Shown in pieces: positions 1-11,956 of a stretch of DNA of 23,774 bases (its first letter is position 1; every line of letters begins with the position of its first letter). The position numbers were made by a program, and so were the translations under genes. Below the pieces are notes generated by a model. It did no database searches and was not told where the DNA came from. It saw only the letters and a program-made list of their open reading frames with translations. Origin of the DNA: a virus; IMG/VR virus record IMGVR_UViG_3300010354_000661, positions 1 to 23,774 of that record. One strand, given 5' to 3'.

Positions 1-477
1 AGGCGCTACAGCGCACTTTCGATGTGTGGCATCGCCGGGGACGATGACGATGCCGAGGAGGACCGCCGGGACCGCGAAGAGCGCAAGCCGCTGGCAACGC
101 CAACCCGGCGCACAGCCCGTGAAGCGCCCAAGGCCCCCGCACAGCCTGCCGCGCCCGCCCCAGAGGCGAAGCCGACCTTCGATGGCAAGATGGACCGCTT
201 CCCCGACGAAGGCGAAGTGACCATCACCGTGAAGCGCGTCGTGGAGCGCGGGAAAGCATTTGCGGTCCACGCCATGTCAGCAGAACACGGTGGCGCATGG
301 CTGCGCGTCCAGCAGCCCGAGATGGCGGAATGCTTGCGGCAGATGGTCAACGGGGTTGCCCGCGTCACCATCGCCCGGATTGATGTCAGCACCATTGACA
401 TCCTTGCAGTCAAGGCAAGCGCGGCAATGGCCGCAGCAGAAACCGAAACGGAGCAGGACGCCAATGTTCCCTTCTGA
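1..477 (+). CDS. ERF-family single-strand annealing protein, 3' part (5' end outside window)
   Basis: The frame is open to the left edge (158 residues visible), so the gene begins upstream. The ATG at 22 is probably internal. The first visible residues, RRYSALSMCGIAGDDDDAEE, match the end of the ERF recombinase core, where a [R]YALLxxxGIxxDDDDA-like segment is typical. ERF proteins anneal single-stranded DNA and promote phage recombination and genome circularisation. A Pro/Ala/Arg-rich linker follows. Then comes a roughly 75-residue segment with alternating hydrophobic strands (EVTITVKRVVERGKAFAVHA and VARVTIARIDVSTIDILAVK) that could be a small OB-like fold. The last residues, EQDANVPF, resemble the SSB tip (DDDIPF). 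The ERF call rests on one motif plus phage context. The OB-like reading and the SSB-tip reading are inference. Confidence 0.72.
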   Translation, partial: RRYSALSMCGIAGDDDDAEEDRRDREERKPLATPTRRTAREAPKAPAQPAAPAPEAKPTFDGKMDRFPDEGEVTITVKRVVERGKAFAVHAMSAEHGGAWLRVQQPEMAECLRQMVNGVARVTIARIDVSTIDILAVKASAAMAAAETETEQDANVPF

Positions 478-2840: not shown

Positions 2841-3128
2841 ATGCTTGAGAAGATCCCCATTGAGCATTCGTCCGATGTCCGCGTTGCGATCCTGTCCGCG
2901 CTGCATGAGCGCGAAGCAACCCCCTACGGGTTCGCCAAGGCGGTAGCCGATGCCGGGATCACGGCGCACCACACGGTCGATGCCGTGCTGGCCCCACCGG
3001 AATCGTTGACGCATTCCGTGCCCACCCTGCCCACCGCGCTGGCCCTGCTGGATGCGGCGGGCTACGACCTGATCGCCGTGCGCCGCCGGGAAGGCATCAA
3101 GATCACCGCCAAGAGGAGGAAGGGATGA
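2841..3128 (+). CDS. Small HTH-like protein, possible regulator
   Basis: This 95-residue protein starts at ATG 2841 with no ribosome site but a TACAAT box six bases before the start. Residues 28-50 (PYGFAKAVADAGITAHHTVD and onward) resemble an XRE/Cro-like helix-turn-helix: 'xxFAKAVxxAGI' followed by a second helix. After this comes a segment similar to the usual C-terminal helix (TLPTALALLDAAGYDLIAV). The tail is basic (RRREGIKITAKRRKG), fitting nucleic-acid contact. It is the first gene of its transcription unit and overlaps the methyltransferase gene by ATGA. It could regulate that gene or the packaging genes, but the HTH call is by pattern only. Confidence 0.6.
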   Translation: MLEKIPIEHSSDVRVAILSALHEREATPYGFAKAVADAGITAHHTVDAVLAPPESLTHSVPTLPTALALLDAAGYDLIAVRRREGIKITAKRRKG

Positions 3129-4324
3129 CCACCGGACTGTCAATGACCGTGCAGGACGTTGCCATTGCCGACCTGCATTTTGATCCAGCCAACGTCCGCA
3201 AGCACCCCGAAGAGAACCTCGCAGCCCTGAAAGGCTCCTTGGAACGCTTCGGCCAGCAAAAGCCCATCGTGGTGGATGCCAAGAACGTGGTCATCGCGGG
3301 CAACGGCTTCCTCGCCGCCGCCAAGGCGCTGGGATGGAAAACCGTCAAGGTGGTGCGGTCCAACCTGATGGGCGCAGAAGCGACCGCCTACGCCATTGCG
3401 GACAACCGTACCGCCGAACTGGCGGAATGGGACGAAGCCGCGCTGCAACAGCAACTTGCCGCCATTGCCATTCAGGATGCGGAACTGCTTGCAGCCACGG
3501 GCTTTGACGAAAAGGAACTGGCGCGACTGGCCGCACAGGCAATGCCGGAAGTGACCGAGGACGAAGTACCCGAGCCGCCCGCCGAACCCATCACCCAAAC
3601 CGGCGACCTATGGATGCTTGGCACCCACCGCCTGCTTTGCGGGGACAGCACCAAGGCCGAGGATGTGAAACGACTTACCGATGGCAAGCGTGTAGATCTC
3701 ATGCTGACCGACCCGCCGTACAACGTGGACTACACGGGCGGCACCAAGGACGCGCTCAAAATTGCCAACGACAGCATGAGCGACTCCGACTTCCGCAAAT
3801 TCCTCACGGCCTGTTTCAGCGCTGCGTTCGATGCCATGAAGCCCGGAGCAGCCTTTTACGTTTGGCACGCCGACAGCGAGGGCTACAACTTCCGTGGCGC
3901 AATCCGCGATTGCAAACAGTCCGTGCGCCAATGCCTGATCTGGGCAAAGAACGCTCTTGTCATGGGACGGCAGGATTACCAATGGCAGCATGAACCATGC
4001 CTGTACGGATGGAAAGACGGCGCTTCCCACGGTTGGTACAGCGACCGGAAGCAGACCACGCTGCTGCATTTCGACCGCCCCAAGCGCAGCGAGGAACACC
4101 CGACGATGAAGCCCGTGGCCATGTTCGCCTATCTGCTGGGCAACAGCACCGCGCCGCAAGGGATTGTGTACGACCCGTTTCTCGGCAGCGGCACCACCCT
4201 GATCGCCGCCGAACAACTTGGCCGCACCTGCTACGGCATGGAGATCAGCCCTGCGTACTGCGACGTGATCGTCAAGCGATGGGAAACGCTCACAGGATTG
4301 ACAGCCACGCGGGAAAAGGTGTAA
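3125..4324 (+). CDS. ParB-like/DNA N6-adenine or N4-cytosine methyltransferase fusion
   Basis: This 399-residue protein starts at ATG 3125 after a GAGGAGG-type ribosome site; the ATG at 3143 is a weaker alternative. The first ~100 residues are a ParB/Srx-like domain: IADLHFDPANVRKHPEENLA, then VIAGNGFLAAAKALGWKTV and later YAIADNRTAELAEWD. The C-terminal ~230 residues are an S-adenosylmethionine-dependent amino-methyltransferase. Motif IV DPPY lies at residues 196-199 and the SAM-binding motif DPFLGSGTTLIAAEQLGR begins at residue 350, which is the beta-class order. It would methylate phage DNA at an exocyclic amino group. A role in protection from host restriction is a reasonable inference. 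Its place directly before terminase suggests modification near the time of packaging. Specificity (adenine versus cytosine, target site) cannot be read from sequence. Confidence 0.9.
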   Translation: MTTGLSMTVQDVAIADLHFDPANVRKHPEENLAALKGSLERFGQQKPIVVDAKNVVIAGNGFLAAAKALGWKTVKVVRSNLMGAEATAYAIADNRTAELAEWDEAALQQQLAAIAIQDAELLAATGFDEKELARLAAQAMPEVTEDEVPEPPAEPITQTGDLWMLGTHRLLCGDSTKAEDVKRLTDGKRVDLMLTDPPYNVDYTGGTKDALKIANDSMSDSDFRKFLTACFSAAFDAMKPGAAFYVWHADSEGYNFRGAIRDCKQSVRQCLIWAKNALVMGRQDYQWQHEPCLYGWKDGASHGWYSDRKQTTLLHFDRPKRSEEHPTMKPVAMFAYLLGNSTAPQGIVYDPFLGSGTTLIAAEQLGRTCYGMEISPAYCDVIVKRWETLTGLTATREKV

Positions 4325-6843: not shown

Positions 6844-8334
6844 ATGGCCGAAATGCAACACAGCAATCCGCTCATGCCCAACGCCGTCCCCGGCGCGGGC
6901 CTTCCTCCTGCCAAGCGTCCGCGCAAGCCGCTGCCAGCACCAGCGCAGCGCGGGCCGACCGGGCCGCTTGCGCTGCCCGTGGAAGTGCAGCGCACCTTCT
7001 TCCGCACGGCGTCCTTGATGCTGCGGAACTCCAGCCTTGCATACAGGCTGGACCCCAACTACCAAGCGATGATGCGGGCGGATGCGGACATCGAAGGTGT
7101 CCTGCGTTCCCTGCTTGTCACGCTTGCTGGACTGGAATGGGCTGTGGTCCCTGCCGACGAGGACAACCCCCGGCTGGTTGCGCTTGCCGACCGCCTGACG
7201 CAGATTGTCAACCGCATCCCACGGCGGTCCGACCTGTTCCGCGCCTTGCATGAGGCAGTCTGGTACGGGTGCAGCGCGGCCAACATCGTGTACGAGCGCG
7301 ATGCCGAAACAGGCGTGCGCGTCAAGGAGTGGTTCCCGTTCGCGTCCGACACGCTGGCGTTCGACCAGTACGGCAACCTTGCCATGCGCGTGGGCAGCGC
7401 GTACATCAACGAACCGTCCGTGACGGATCTAGGTTTCGATTCGCTGGTCCACCTGTTCACGGAGAACGAGCGCCGGTCCGTCGTGCTGCACCGCGTGTTC
7501 ACGACCGCGCCCAACTTCATCGACCCCAACACCAGCGAAGCGGTCTACCGTGGCGTTGGTGCGCGTGACGTGTGCTGGTACATCTGGCTTCTGAAGCAGG
7601 AGATCCTGCAAAACGCCGCCGCGTATGCGGAACGGTACGCGCTGGGAATCCGCGTCGGCTACTACCCGTCAGGAAACGACGCCGCCAAGTCGGAAATGCT
7701 GACGGTGCTACAGAACCTTGTCAACGACAACAGCGTCGTGCTGCCGCGCATCGGACCCAATGAATCGCTGTACGACATTGACATCAAGGACGCGAACGCG
7801 GGCCGAGCGCAAATCTTCATGGAGATGGTGACGTGGCTGTCGGGCAAGATCAAAGAAGCGATCTTGGGGCAAAGCCTGACCAGCGAAGCGGGCAGCACCG
7901 GGCTGGGGTCGGGCGTGGCCGACCTGCACGCCGACACGCTTTCCCGCGTCATCCGCTATCACGCGGACGCGCTTGCCGAAAGTTTCACCACGGATTTCCT
8001 GCGCGTCGTGGCAAGAATGCTTGGAGCCACCGACGTTGAGGCCAACGGGGTCACGTTCACCTTTGCCCCCGAGCGAAGCAACCAGAAGGAACGTCTGGAG
8101 GCAATCAGATCGTTCGTGGATCTGGGCGGGCGCGTGTCGGAACGCGAGGTGCGCGATCTGCTTGGCCTGAGCGAACCACAGGACGGGGAAGCGGTCCTTG
8201 GAGGCGGAAACGCGGGTGCGTCGGAGAACCCGCTTTCCGCCCTCCTTGGCGCTGGCAATGAGGCCGAGTCCGACGAAGCCCCGGAACCCACGGCACCCAA
8301 GGTCAGCGCAATGCGGCGCAAGCGCAAGCGGTGA
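6844..8334 (+). CDS. Portal protein, DUF935 (Mu gp29-like)
   Basis: This 496-residue protein is of normal portal length. After a Pro-rich disordered N-terminus, it has the portal core: LRNSSLAYRLDPNYQAMMRADADIEGVLRSLLVTLAGLEW-like text, shared with DUF935 portals. A conserved aromatic/helical stem segment follows, and ILGQSLTSEAGSTGLGSGVA begins at residue 340, matching the 'ILGQTLTTE...' signature of the family. A helix (HADTLSRVIRYHADALAES) comes next. The C-terminus is low-complexity and ends in MRRKRKR. Twelve copies form the vertex channel through which terminase pumps DNA. Start ATG 6844 has only a weak GGGAAA upstream. It overlaps the MuF-like gene by GTGA. Confidence 0.9.
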   Translation: MAEMQHSNPLMPNAVPGAGLPPAKRPRKPLPAPAQRGPTGPLALPVEVQRTFFRTASLMLRNSSLAYRLDPNYQAMMRADADIEGVLRSLLVTLAGLEWAVVPADEDNPRLVALADRLTQIVNRIPRRSDLFRALHEAVWYGCSAANIVYERDAETGVRVKEWFPFASDTLAFDQYGNLAMRVGSAYINEPSVTDLGFDSLVHLFTENERRSVVLHRVFTTAPNFIDPNTSEAVYRGVGARDVCWYIWLLKQEILQNAAAYAERYALGIRVGYYPSGNDAAKSEMLTVLQNLVNDNSVVLPRIGPNESLYDIDIKDANAGRAQIFMEMVTWLSGKIKEAILGQSLTSEAGSTGLGSGVADLHADTLSRVIRYHADALAESFTTDFLRVVARMLGATDVEANGVTFTFAPERSNQKERLEAIRSFVDLGGRVSEREVRDLLGLSEPQDGEAVLGGGNAGASENPLSALLGAGNEAESDEAPEPTAPKVSAMRRKRKR

Positions 8335-9422
8335 ACAAACAGAAGTTGGACAAGCACTTGCGGAACGTACTGCGCGAGGCGCAGGAGGCGTACCGCCGCG
8401 CCATTGCGGAACAGGTCCGTGGCAATGACGAGGACGCCGCGTGGCAAGCCTTTGGGGAAGCCGCGTCTGCCCTGCTGCTGGCGTCGTGGCTGTTTGGCGC
8501 ACGCGGGATGATTGACAAGGCCAAGATCCCCGACGAGGCCGTGGAAGGCATGGTGGAGGACGGGGAGCCACCGATGGTCACCAAGTTCGACCGGGGCGTC
8601 CCGCTGTCAACGGAGGGATTTGGCAGCAAGTGGATGACGGGGATCACGTCGTGGTTTCGGCAACGCGTCCCCATCAGCCGTCAATCGTGGGAACTGCTGA
8701 TCGAAGCCGCCCGCCTGTCGGCACGGGACGTGACCAGCCACGAACGCCAGACGGCGTTGGCCGACATGAGGCGGCGCAGCCCGATCCTTGACAGCCTTCT
8801 TCGGGGAGTGACGCGAAACCCATCCGGCGGCATGACCAGCGTGAAGCGCATCGTGGATGACACCTTCTTCGTCACCGCGATGGACGCACGGCAGACCAAG
8901 CAGGTGCAAGAACTGATCGCACAGGTGATTGAGGAGAAGCCGACCAAGAGCGTGGTCGGCAAGCGCATCAAGGCCATGAACCTAGGCGATTTCGTCACCA
9001 CCGCACAGGTGCGGACGGGCACGGAATTGACAACCGCACGGCTGGAAACGGTGCTGCGGACCAACACGAACCGGGCATTGACAGAGGGGGCGGCAGAAGT
9101 GCTGCGGGAGCCGAAGGTTCAAGCCTTCGTCCCGCTGGCACAATTCAGCGCCACGAAGGACAACCGTACCCGTGACACGCATCGACGGTTTGACGGCTAC
9201 GTCGGCACGATGGATGACTTCGACCGCATCGGCTGTTCGCCCCCGGTTGGATTCAACTGCCGCTGCGCCCTGATCCCCGTTCCCTTGGCGCGTGCCATAA
9301 AGGAAGGCTGGGTGCGCCCCAACGGCACGCTGAACCGCGAGGCGATCAACAGACACAACGGTCGGCGTGTCAACCTGCTGCAATCAGGCAAGATCCCCGA
9401 CCCCGGCTTCGTGAACGCATAA
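8331..9422 (+). CDS. MuF-type minor head protein (SPP1 gp7 / phage head morphogenesis family)
   Basis: This 363-residue product starts at GTG 8331, overlapping the portal stop. The N-terminal half is helical. The C-terminal ~130 residues contain the PF04233 signature: helix LETVLRTNTNRALTEGAAEV, then T280-R-D-T-H284 followed by RRFDGYVGTMDDF, and finally PPVGFNCRCALIPV with G307-F-N-C310-R-C312. Family members sit beside the portal and enter the procapsid; they are needed for head assembly or early DNA ejection steps. Placement directly after portal matches Mu-like and SPP1-like gene order. No extra toxin domain is fused to the C-terminus, unlike many MuF proteins. Confidence 0.9.
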   Translation: MNKQKLDKHLRNVLREAQEAYRRAIAEQVRGNDEDAAWQAFGEAASALLLASWLFGARGMIDKAKIPDEAVEGMVEDGEPPMVTKFDRGVPLSTEGFGSKWMTGITSWFRQRVPISRQSWELLIEAARLSARDVTSHERQTALADMRRRSPILDSLLRGVTRNPSGGMTSVKRIVDDTFFVTAMDARQTKQVQELIAQVIEEKPTKSVVGKRIKAMNLGDFVTTAQVRTGTELTTARLETVLRTNTNRALTEGAAEVLREPKVQAFVPLAQFSATKDNRTRDTHRRFDGYVGTMDDFDRIGCSPPVGFNCRCALIPVPLARAIKEGWVRPNGTLNREAINRHNGRRVNLLQSGKIPDPGFVNA

Positions 9423-9439: not shown

Positions 9440-9452
9440 TAGGATGAATGAC
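9440..9452 (+). promoter_or_regulatory. TANNNT leaderless-type element before the mosaic gene
   Basis: TAGGAT at 9440-9445 is followed by seven bases and ATG 9453. The hexamer overlaps the alternative start ATG 9444. There is no Shine-Dalgarno site and no clear -35. It is listed because the same arrangement precedes 2841 and 6166. Confidence 0.3.
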
Positions 9453-10778
9453 ATGAGCGACATTCGCAAGGCAATCATGGAACGTCTTGGCTGGGCGGCA
9501 AATCCCGAGTCTTTCGGCGCGAAGGCGAAGATGTCGAAGTGGGAATCGACCCTGACCAAGAAGAATGGCAAGGTGATTGAGGAATACACGGCACGCCTGA
9601 AGGGTGGGCTGTTCATGATCGAAGTTGGCGATGGTGCTGGCGGCCCGTACGCCATTTTGTATCGGTGGGATGACCTTCGTGGCGCGGAGCGCATCGCTTC
9701 TGGCAACTTGCAGTCACTTATGCGGCAGGCCGAAAGCATGGGCGCAAAAGAGGCGCGTGGAGTGGCCGCTGTTGAGCGGCTTGCAAACTACTCCCGCCCC
9801 GGCGCGAAGGCGAAGATGGGGGCAAGCATTTCTCGCGGTATTGATCCCAAGAAAGGCGGTCAATGGATCACCGGAACTTGGGACGGTGGCACTTGGGGCG
9901 CGCTGGTGTTTTCAGAGCCATCCGAGGCATACGGAATCCCGGAGTTCCCGCACATTAGCAAGCTCTACATGAACCCAAAGGGAATGCCGGGGATGCGCGA
10001 CGTGGTGGTGAACTACGACCGAGGCTGGGATGTGCGTCCGAATACCACGGAACTCAAGAAGGGCTATCAAGAGATCGCCAGCGCGGCAACCGCAGCGGCA
10101 AAGAAGGCAGCGGCGGCTGGTTGGTATTCCCGCCCCGGCGCGAAGGCGAAGATGGCCGAGTCGGCCAATGGATCGCAGCAGAATCAGGCAGTCGAAGCCT
10201 ATGGCGTAAAGGGCATGAAGAGTACGCCGTGGCGAAAGGTATTCAAGAACAACGCAGCGCTCCAAAAGTGGGTGGAAGCAAATGACGCAGAAGTGCATGG
10301 CACCCGTCCTGCAAGTGGCGTGTTCTCCCGCCCCGGCGCGAAGGCGAAGTTTGCCATCAACGTGGCAAAGATCACCAAACTGTGGGATGACGCAGGACAT
10401 CCGCTCGACAATCGCCAACTCGATGCGCTTCGGCAAGTCGCTGCTCGTATCTACGACATCGAGAATGACCTGCTGCCAAACATGACATATCGAAGGCAGC
10501 GCATTGAGCGCGAACTGCAACTGGCGTCCGCTCGGATCGCGGATGGCAATACGCCATCAAGCGTGCTGGCCGATCTGGTGAAGTTGGAGGCTGCTGCGCA
10601 GTCATTCGACCGCCCCGGCGCGAAGGCGACCGCAGCAGCCGAGAAGCCCGGACAGAAGATCATGTCCGAGTCTGATCCTGCCGTGTCCCGCAAGATCAAG
10701 AAGTTGATGGACGAGGGCTACCCGCAGAAGCAGGCGGTCGCCATCGCGCTGGATATGCAGCGAAGGGGTGAACTGTGA
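9444..10778 (+). CDS. Mosaic multi-module protein joined by SRPGAKAK linkers
   Basis: The product is 444 residues from ATG 9444 (441 from ATG 9453, which better fits the upstream TAGGAT box and a shared MS-x-RK N-terminus). Five linkers, consensus [YF]SRPGAKAKM, start at residues 24 (partial, FGAKAKM), 116, 228, 294 and 388. They separate modules of unlike sequence. Module 1 has a beta-rich patch (EYTARLKGGLFMIEVGDGAG). Module 2 includes GQWITGTWDGGTWGALVF. Module 3 contains AYGVKGMKSTPWRKVFKN. Module 4 is helical (ITKLWDDAGHPLDNRQLDAL). Module 5 ends with KKLMDEGYPQKQAVAIALDM, a motif that recurs in small phage proteins. Two sample 60-base lines give 53-55% G+C against about 72% for a line of the MuF gene. 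It lies between MuF and protease, so it may be a virion or procapsid component. No activity can be assigned. Confidence 0.8.
   Translation: MNDMSDIRKAIMERLGWAANPESFGAKAKMSKWESTLTKKNGKVIEEYTARLKGGLFMIEVGDGAGGPYAILYRWDDLRGAERIASGNLQSLMRQAESMGAKEARGVAAVERLANYSRPGAKAKMGASISRGIDPKKGGQWITGTWDGGTWGALVFSEPSEAYGIPEFPHISKLYMNPKGMPGMRDVVVNYDRGWDVRPNTTELKKGYQEIASAATAAAKKAAAAGWYSRPGAKAKMAESANGSQQNQAVEAYGVKGMKSTPWRKVFKNNAALQKWVEANDAEVHGTRPASGVFSRPGAKAKFAINVAKITKLWDDAGHPLDNRQLDALRQVAARIYDIENDLLPNMTYRRQRIERELQLASARIADGNTPSSVLADLVKLEAAAQSFDRPGAKATAAAEKPGQKIMSESDPAVSRKIKKLMDEGYPQKQAVAIALDMQRRGEL
9513..10629 (+). repeat. Five dispersed in-frame linker repeats
   Basis: Copies lie at 9513-9533 (shortened), 9789-9818, 10125-10154, 10323-10349 and 10605-10629. 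The core CGCCCCGGCGCGAAGGCGA (19 bases) is identical in the last four, and the first keeps its 3' part, GGCGCGAAGGCGA. Copies two to four are identical over 24 bases, including all third codon positions. Spacing between linkers is 92, 112, 66 and 94 codons. All copies are in the same reading frame and the intervening DNA is not related. Confidence 0.9.
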
Positions 10779-11956
10779 CCCTTGCCGCGCCCGGATCGCA
10801 CGAAGTCATTGACAGCGGCGACAAGGTGACCGTGCGCCGCGTGGAACTGTTCATGGCATTCGACCCCACCATTGACGATGGCGAGGCCGACCCGGAACTT
10901 CGCAAGTTCGACAACGACCGCCTCCGCAGCATCGTCCAGCACACGCGCAAGCACATGGCACGCGGCTCCTTCCCCCGCGTGGTCATCATGCATGAGAAGG
11001 ACGGCAAGGAGCCCAAGAGCGCCGTTGGACGAATCCCCGCAATTGCTTACGAAGAACGCAATGGCGTCGGATACATTGTCGGAGACATGGAAATGGGGAA
11101 GGGCATCTTCGACAAACTCATTGCCACCAATGCGTTCCCGCGTCGGTCGGCGGAAATCTGGTCGGAGTCGGATCACCTGTCGGAGATTGCCCTGCTGGGG
11201 CGGGAGACTCCCCGCAGACCGCTCCCCGACACGCACTTCGCCCATTCGGGCGACAAGATCGTCTTTTCAAAGTCCAACCACGACCTCGCCGGGGTTGGTG
11301 GAGGGCTCAACACATTTGTCCCGGCGGAAATCAAGGAGGAGGCCAGCATGGCATCCGATGACATCCGCAAGGAGATGGAGGCCATGAAGTGCGCCATTTC
11401 CGACCTCGCGGACATGATGAAGAAGAAGTTTGCCGACCCGGCAGACGAGAAGGTGACGGCTGAGGCTGAGGAGGAGGCCGACGTTCACATCGACATCGGC
11501 TCCCACGATGCCGAGGCTCCCGGTGCGACCGCCGACATCGAAGGTGCGGAAGCCGAGGAGGAGGACGGCGAGGAGGAAGTTCTTGCCATGCGCGAGACCT
11601 ACAGCCTCCGGTCGGAGAACGCCCGCCTGAAGGCCCGCTTTGCCCGTCTGGAATCGGAGATGAAGCGCGAGAAGTTTTCGCGTGAGATCGACCAGATGGC
11701 CGCTGAGGGCTACCGCATTCCCGAGGCCCAGCGGGACAACCTGATCGCGCAACTTGACGCTGCCCGCGATCCTGTATCGCTGCTGGAGTCGTGGCGGGAA
11801 CTGTTCTCCCGTGATCCCATCGGCACCAAGATTGACATGGGCCGTGCGGCGCTTCCCAAGAGCGCCGAAACCGTGGATGTTGCTTCGCTGGTGCGCGAGT
11901 TCGCTGGCAAGCCGTCCGAGTTCACCAAGGCCATCAACAGCCGCATCAAGCGGTAA
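10775..11956 (+). CDS. Prohead protease with C-terminal scaffold region (Mu gpI-like)
   Basis: This 393-residue product starts at GTG 10775, overlapping the previous stop. Residues 1-160 form the protease-like domain: RRVELFMAFDPTIDDGEADP, PKSAVGRIPAIAYEERNGVG, then AFPRRSAEIWSESDHLSEIA (with S125) and LLGRETPRRPLP. This recalls the '...RSxE...L..vALLG..P' signature of Mu I-like proteases. After a linker comes a helical, very acidic scaffold region (EAEEEADVHIDI; AEAEEEDGEEEVLAM), a coiled coil (SLRSENARLKARFARLESEM) and a conserved-looking tail. Such proteins cleave scaffold and capsid during maturation. The catalytic residues cannot be fixed from this sequence, so the class is inferred from pattern and position before the capsid genes. 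Confidence 0.78.
   Translation: MTLAAPGSHEVIDSGDKVTVRRVELFMAFDPTIDDGEADPELRKFDNDRLRSIVQHTRKHMARGSFPRVVIMHEKDGKEPKSAVGRIPAIAYEERNGVGYIVGDMEMGKGIFDKLIATNAFPRRSAEIWSESDHLSEIALLGRETPRRPLPDTHFAHSGDKIVFSKSNHDLAGVGGGLNTFVPAEIKEEASMASDDIRKEMEAMKCAISDLADMMKKKFADPADEKVTAEAEEEADVHIDIGSHDAEAPGATADIEGAEAEEEDGEEEVLAMRETYSLRSENARLKARFARLESEMKREKFSREIDQMAAEGYRIPEAQRDNLIAQLDAARDPVSLLESWRELFSRDPIGTKIDMGRAALPKSAETVDVASLVREFAGKPSEFTKAINSRIKR
11348..11956 (+). CDS. Nested in-frame scaffold protein (Mu gpZ / lambda Nu3-like), predicted
   Basis: Inside the protease gene and in its frame, ATG 11348 (Met192) is preceded by AAGGAGGAGG at 11333-11342. This is one of the strongest ribosome sites in the window, with optimal spacing (5-8 bases). 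Translation from here gives 202 residues, MASDDIRKEMEAMKCAISDL onward, without the protease domain but with the acidic and coiled-coil scaffold parts and the shared C-terminus. Mu (I/Z) and lambda (C/Nu3) make their scaffolds in this way from the 3' part of the protease gene. The site itself is seen directly; use as a start is inference. Confidence 0.65.
   Translation: MASDDIRKEMEAMKCAISDLADMMKKKFADPADEKVTAEAEEEADVHIDIGSHDAEAPGATADIEGAEAEEEDGEEEVLAMRETYSLRSENARLKARFARLESEMKREKFSREIDQMAAEGYRIPEAQRDNLIAQLDAARDPVSLLESWRELFSRDPIGTKIDMGRAALPKSAETVDVASLVREFAGKPSEFTKAINSRIKR

Follow-up and report, generated by a model that had tools for sequence, protein, structure and literature searches.

The internal proteins of phage T4 are unlike one another, bear one targeting tag and are injected, and the restriction enzyme that is blocked differs from one protein to the next (PMC12373910, PMC9026906). 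In Mu-like phages, the region past the MuF gene and ahead of the head protease gene is a plasticity site for anti-CRISPR genes, and the flanks of the anti-CRISPR loci are reported to contain no common sequence suggesting a recombinase target (PMC4378225). Other systems in which units are exchanged include the gene cassettes of integrons, with a common joint (attC), PeSL elements, in which short repeated DNA provides homology for the shuffling of unrelated units, and phage proteins between which domains have been shuffled (PMC10684548).

The locus described here lies in a stretch of viral DNA of 23,774 nucleotides (IMG/VR record IMGVR_UViG_3300010354_000661, positions 1 to 23,774), hereafter called the window. 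Like T4 Ip1-Ip3, its array gene and the relatives of this gene encode small, unlike units behind one N-terminal tag, are found among head genes and vary between close phages, but T4 has one gene per protein, whereas the array joins many modules in one chain through an in-frame linker conserved as DNA. The T4 Ip cargo is injected and blocks restriction enzymes, while packaging and injection of the array product are only inferred, and no similarity to T4-type Ip was seen among the matches listed from 50,697 phage records. The site of the array, past MuF and ahead of the protease, is that of AcrF2 in D3112, where small, variable, strain-specific genes likewise sit between MuF (and G) and the head protease; these are, however, separate genes without a linker. 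The requirement of short repeated DNA as homology is met by the array at its exchanged boundaries, but PeSLs are intergenic promoter/terminator elements, whereas the array linker is coding, in frame and without a stem loop or promoter. With integron cassettes the array shares the order, the common joint and the open pool of exchangeable units; it lacks an integrase and an attC-like fold, and its units are parts of one protein. A term search of the domain mosaicism study (PMC10684548) found neither a repeated DNA adaptor nor a multi-module array. An open-access literature search gave no account of such arrays and the linker peptide string was absent, although an earlier description cannot be excluded. 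The novelty is in the architecture; homologous recombination, tags and mosaicism are already known.

Organization of the array gene

The ORF at 9444-10778 (+) corresponds to 444 amino acids, including five in-frame linkers with the consensus [FY]SRPGAKAK[MF]. The likely start codon of the protein is the ATG at 9453 (MSDIRKAI...), not the 9444 position given in the initial annotation, and relatives share the corresponding start MSxxRKxIxxRLG. The gene is part of a Mu-like head module, between a MuF-like gene and a probable protease/scaffold gene. The features of the window referred to below are as follows.

1..477 (+), ERF single-strand annealing recombinase, C-terminal part, cut by the contig end
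6166..6810 (+), GxGPxGF coiled-coil protein gene with an array-type N-terminal tag (MSVRKEIERRLG), otherwise unrelated
8331..9422 (+), MuF-like head protein, upstream neighbour (PF04233, E 8e-15)
9453..10778 (+), array gene, probable start ATG 9453 with AGGA upstream; ORF from 9444
9453..9491 (+), constant N-terminal tag MSDIRKAIMERLG, in array loci common to many ORFs
9507..9530 (+), linker 1, diverged, ESFGAKAK, 24-nt core
9531..9791 (+), module 1, family 0, found in 21 distinct arrays and at 6 positions
9792..9815 (+), linker 2, consensus DNA, 24-nt core
9816..10127 (+), module 2, DUF7678 (PF24726, Pfam E 1.1e-14), family 31
10128..10151 (+), linker 3, consensus DNA, 24-nt core
10152..10325 (+), module 3, GVKGMKSTPWRK domain, with standalone 58-aa relatives in other viruses
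10326..10349 (+), linker 4, consensus DNA, 24-nt core
10350..10607 (+), module 4, orphan, without a relative in a search of viral contigs
10608..10631 (+), linker 5, DRPGAKAT, 24-nt core
10632..10775 (+), constant C-terminal unit, phrog_2423 (PHROGs E 7e-11), in 34 of 66 arrays
10775..11956 (+), next gene, probable prohead protease fused to a scaffold, on weak evidence

The initial annotation described the gene as a mosaic of unlike modules on near-identical linkers, and this is what was found: the units without linkers have 87, 104, 58, 86 and 48 amino acids, and the four internal modules belong to four separate families (0, 31, 112 and 113). The identity over 24 bases that had been claimed for three linkers was seen in the middle three, linkers 2, 3 and 4 (TCCCGCCCCGGCGCGAAGGCGAAG), while linker 1 has diverged upstream, with GGCGCGAAGGCGAAG retained and an ATG directly after it. 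With at most one mismatch, GGCGCGAAGGCG occurs in six copies in the window, five of which are the linkers of the array gene, compared with 0.55 copies expected (maximum of 100 shuffles, 3). Two modules had also been thought to occur alone elsewhere; these are the GVKGMKSTPWRK domain, present as a 58-aa protein, and the last unit, which elsewhere is the phrog_2423 protein of 55-96 amino acids of many phages. In an unrelated virus (L291, 1713-2480), one protein fuses phrog_2423-like and GVKGMKSTPWRK domains. A copy of module 2 with 82 % identity is carried by another array. For module 1, AlphaFold2 predicted a helix and five strands (pLDDT 77), for which Foldseek gave no match with E < 0.6 and the top VIA Z of 6.5 was under the meaningful level.

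The assignment of the next gene as the prohead protease received only weak support. His73 and Ser125 of its product are invariant, and the structure gave weak viral-fold matches, to prohead serine proteases at E 7e-3 and to a scaffolding protein at E 4.9e-5; no match was obtained with Pfam, PDB or hhalign.

Relatives of the array gene and the module pool

The linker DNA (TCC CGC CCC GGC GCG AAG GCG AAG) was matched exactly over 21 nt (CGCCCCGGCGCGAAGGCGAAG) in 116 other viral stretches, with up to five in-frame copies per gene, and a codon-degenerate scan for RPGAKAK[MF] gave further loci among the matches listed. In the loci examined, the linker copies share one frame within a single long ORF. 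The 135 loci yielded 154 array ORFs, which begin with the constant N-terminal tag, continue with 1-10 exchangeable modules and in most cases close with a constant C-terminal unit. A second array gene, often 5' of the portal gene, is present in some phages, and several of these second genes end with a bare linker and a stop (RPGAKAKA*). Array genes with this ending, found in L021, L014, L056, L087, L162 and others, look as though they were ready to receive a further module. In L118 (3171-5195), the portal protein is fused with a RKHGRGGTEVGVARARDLSNR domain, a domain encoded ahead of many arrays either in an ORF of its own or in fused form.

The 489 complete internal modules (median 74 amino acids) formed 154 families, almost all of them orphan and 68 with a single member. 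Clustering was restricted to complete internal modules, the terminal units having merged families falsely, and the family numbers are approximate because module boundaries depend on the linker threshold. There were 117 different module strings, and rarefaction was unsaturated, rising from 27 families for 10 arrays to 154 for 117, with a Chao1 estimate of about 300. Family 0, for example, has 13 left and 12 right neighbours in its 21 arrays. Most modules are basic (median pI 9.1) and nearly cysteine-free (0.17 % Cys). A family was repeated within the array in 3 of 117 arrays, compared with 5.9 ± 2.2 if modules were dealt randomly, i.e. without clear avoidance. Tandem duplication followed by divergence was ruled out as the origin of the arrays, adjacent modules being unrelated.

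The linker is common to 11 MuF lineages (clustering at 70 % amino acid identity), which are down to 24 % identical, and 25 of 127 module families span more than one of them. The data are mostly metagenomic contigs, and all the arrays come from such contigs; no array was found in isolate phages, in which there were matches only to single units. In bacterial genomes the degenerate linker matched 105 stretches, nearly all by chance. The sole real-looking match, L204 (OMJK01000020.1, binned as Nitrospiraceae), combines the linker with a relative of the gene that follows the array, and may be either a hint of the host or a binning error.

Conservation of the linker

Linkers from the degenerate scan were counted separately, since the exact-match scan is biased to exact linkers. 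Among the degenerate-scan matches listed, 79 of 111 distinct RPGAKAK linkers had the exact 21 nt, compared with 0.5 expected from the codon use of the same genes, although the counts are not independent, related arrays sharing linkers. This codon identity rules out purely protein-level conservation.

The pN/pS ratio was 0.65 for the linker and 0.36 for its core. At P3, G4 and A5 the ratio of changes was near neutral, yet both kinds of change were rare, a pattern that marks DNA-level conservation. As residues, too, R2 and in particular K6 are constrained, Lys-6 having 3 non-synonymous and 11 synonymous changes where 8:1 are possible, and S, A and the second K vary freely at the protein level. 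As judged from these substitutions, linker conservation works largely on the DNA, but both levels act and the linker cannot be regarded as a DNA element alone; a peptide role, e.g. as a cleavage site, thus stays possible. Within module families the median dN/dS was 0.09, by which measure the modules are under strong purifying selection, the linkers being far less constrained when set against their silent sites.

Exchange of modules at the linkers

The array strings differed in 373 of 400 pairs of arrays whose 1-kb flanks could be aligned on both sides. Different strings occurred on flanking genes of 95-100 % identity, in some pairs 99-100 %, and examples at 97-100 % flank identity are L055/L078, L019/L038, L045/L116 and L055/L104. 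L055 and L078 coincide as far as position 662 and once more from 633 onward; the two identical parts overlap by 30 nt, which are the linker at 634, and the difference between L055 and L078 is a single module with a single linker. Of the alignment breakpoints, 294 of 355 were inside a linker (83 % vs 13 % at random; 93 distinct string pairs), and the 17 % outside linkers included many that recur at one place, the border of the constant C-terminal region. At junctions with the same right and another left module, identity was approximately 27 % upstream, 89-99 % in the linker core and 65-86 % downstream; junctions sharing only the left module had the mirror-image profile, with identity switching within the linker. 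The stretch conserved at junctions was about 28-30 nt. The first residue of the module was Met in 252 and Phe in 211 of 489 modules and was mostly constant within a family, from which it follows that the crossover sits upstream of it.

Modules have also moved between diverged phages. A 100 % identical module is present in L089 and L083, with MuF proteins 40 % and portals 65 % identical, and the same holds for L065 and L009, with MuF proteins 38 % identical; in these cases taken together, the MuF proteins were 38-40 % and the portals 64-65 % identical. These comparisons demonstrate conserved linker DNA, module exchange, breakpoints in linkers and movement of modules between diverged phages.

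Both parts of the initial proposal about the linkers held up in the relatives. It stated that protein-level selection alone does not explain them, as the count of exact codons confirms, and that they are recombination adaptors, which is supported by relatives holding other modules on the same linker DNA with breakpoints in the linkers. A fixed module order with diverged linkers, which would have refuted the adaptor, was not found in the linker search.

Proposed mechanism and alternative explanations

The ERF fragment at the start of the window, with tblastx E values of 2e-19 and 6e-16 to ERF-gene stretches of two relatives, is likely recombination machinery. The 18 near-complete relatives included 12 with ERF and two with RecT; a Rad52-type protein was found neither in the four without ERF/RecT nor in the window. 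RecA and Red have a minimum homology of about 30 bp (PMC2327257). Homologous recombination is the simplest mechanism, since ERF/RecT is present, no integrase or linker fold was found and the linker is approximately 30 nt long. The data strongly suggest homologous rather than site-specific recombination at the linkers, as an inference, recombination itself not having been observed.

Every module boundary would have the same in-frame coding sequence of approximately 30 nt, making the module coding sequences interchangeable. Linkers of two array phages co-infecting one cell, or two linker copies of one genome, could then align, and a crossover in the linker by homologous recombination, most likely ERF/RecT single-strand annealing, would add, drop or swap whole modules with the reading frame intact. 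We consider it quite likely that this gene represents an intragenic cassette array in which shuffling takes place through homologous recombination of the phage.

A dedicated site-specific recombinase acting on the linker, as on attC in integrons, would equally account for the short, sharply conserved DNA, the exact cassette boundaries and the open cassette pool. None of the 18 near-complete relatives, however, had a tyrosine integrase (PF00589) or a serine recombinase above the cut-off, linker DNA folded no better than shuffles (z 0.06 to 0.95), and linkers that have diverged (15-20 of 24 matches) continue to function as joints, making such a recombinase improbable. More weight has to be given to the linker being primarily a processing site at which the prohead protease frees separate peptides, exchange being a by-product. 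The gene is among head genes, the next gene is weakly protease- or scaffold-like and Lys-6, the only hint in the sequence, is held at the protein level, but peptide selection leaves the exact codons unexplained and S, A and the second K vary freely as residues. Processing as the primary role is considered unlikely, cleavage being neither shown nor excluded, and it is a partial rival only, as it is compatible with a recombination adaptor.

The GAAGG 5 nt upstream of the first codon of the module, together with the ATG there in about half of the modules, could provide internal sites for ribosome binding and initiation (GAAGG...ATG) from which modules would also be made alone; this is very doubtful when 211 of the 489 modules start with Phe under the same linker consensus. 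No promoter was found in the linker. The modules might also be no more than neutral material filling the prohead core, exchanged without adaptive meaning. This would fit their being mutually unlike, interchangeable and mostly basic, as expected of proteins packed with DNA, but the low dN/dS indicates that every one of them is maintained as a functional protein, and we regard this reading as improbable also. Chimeric contigs assembled across repeats have to be considered with metagenome contigs and repeated 24-30 mers. The same strings recur, however, in independent datasets (4-15-6 in L006, L011 and L103; 10-3-14-0 in L040, L063 and L084), and an assembly artefact is hardly credible.

Possible function of the array product

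The tag MSxxRKxIxxRLG heads three unlike gene types, the array, the GxGPxGF gene and a third type, and was present in the first 40 amino acids of 122 of 3065 ORFs of array loci, compared with 0.25 expected after shuffling. From the head position, the shared tag, the basic, cysteine-poor modules under purifying selection and the T4 precedent, it can be inferred that the product may be anti-defence cargo packaged in the head and injected. This inference is tentative, with the odds slightly against it, as packaging, injection and activity are all inferred. Comparison of the modules with Pfam, PHROGs and NCBIfam revealed no known inhibitor, and comparison with the defence proteins of PADLOC gave stray matches only. 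Recombination, packaging, injection and activity are all without experimental evidence. If the inference holds, the product would be packaged via its tag and then injected, and the modules would counter varied host defences like the T4 internal proteins.

It is conceivable, though not quite an even chance, that diverged phages draw, through one 30-nt coding adaptor, on a population-wide and open pool of small effector domains, probably several hundred in number, which provides each of them with a capsid-delivered, reshufflable arsenal of anti-defence polyproteins, i.e. an integron-like system in a single ORF, run by ordinary phage homologous recombination. It would amount to a natural, combinatorial form of protein shuffling that uses a defined adaptor and acts in environmental phages at the level of strains. 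It also brings to light about 150 small-domain families (estimated 300) that known libraries hardly contain. If the cargo is an injected anti-defence protein, the arrays list candidate inhibitors of bacterial immunity, and the old question of the in-frame exchange of such functions by phages becomes testable. The adaptor would also serve as a tool in modular protein engineering.

Two further observations concern other genes of the window. A DNA methyltransferase with a ParB-like N-terminal domain (phrog_498) is encoded at 3125-4324, just 5' of the terminase region. The GxGGFxxGNTC motif of the GxGPxGF protein recurs as a module in the arrays of L008 and L016.
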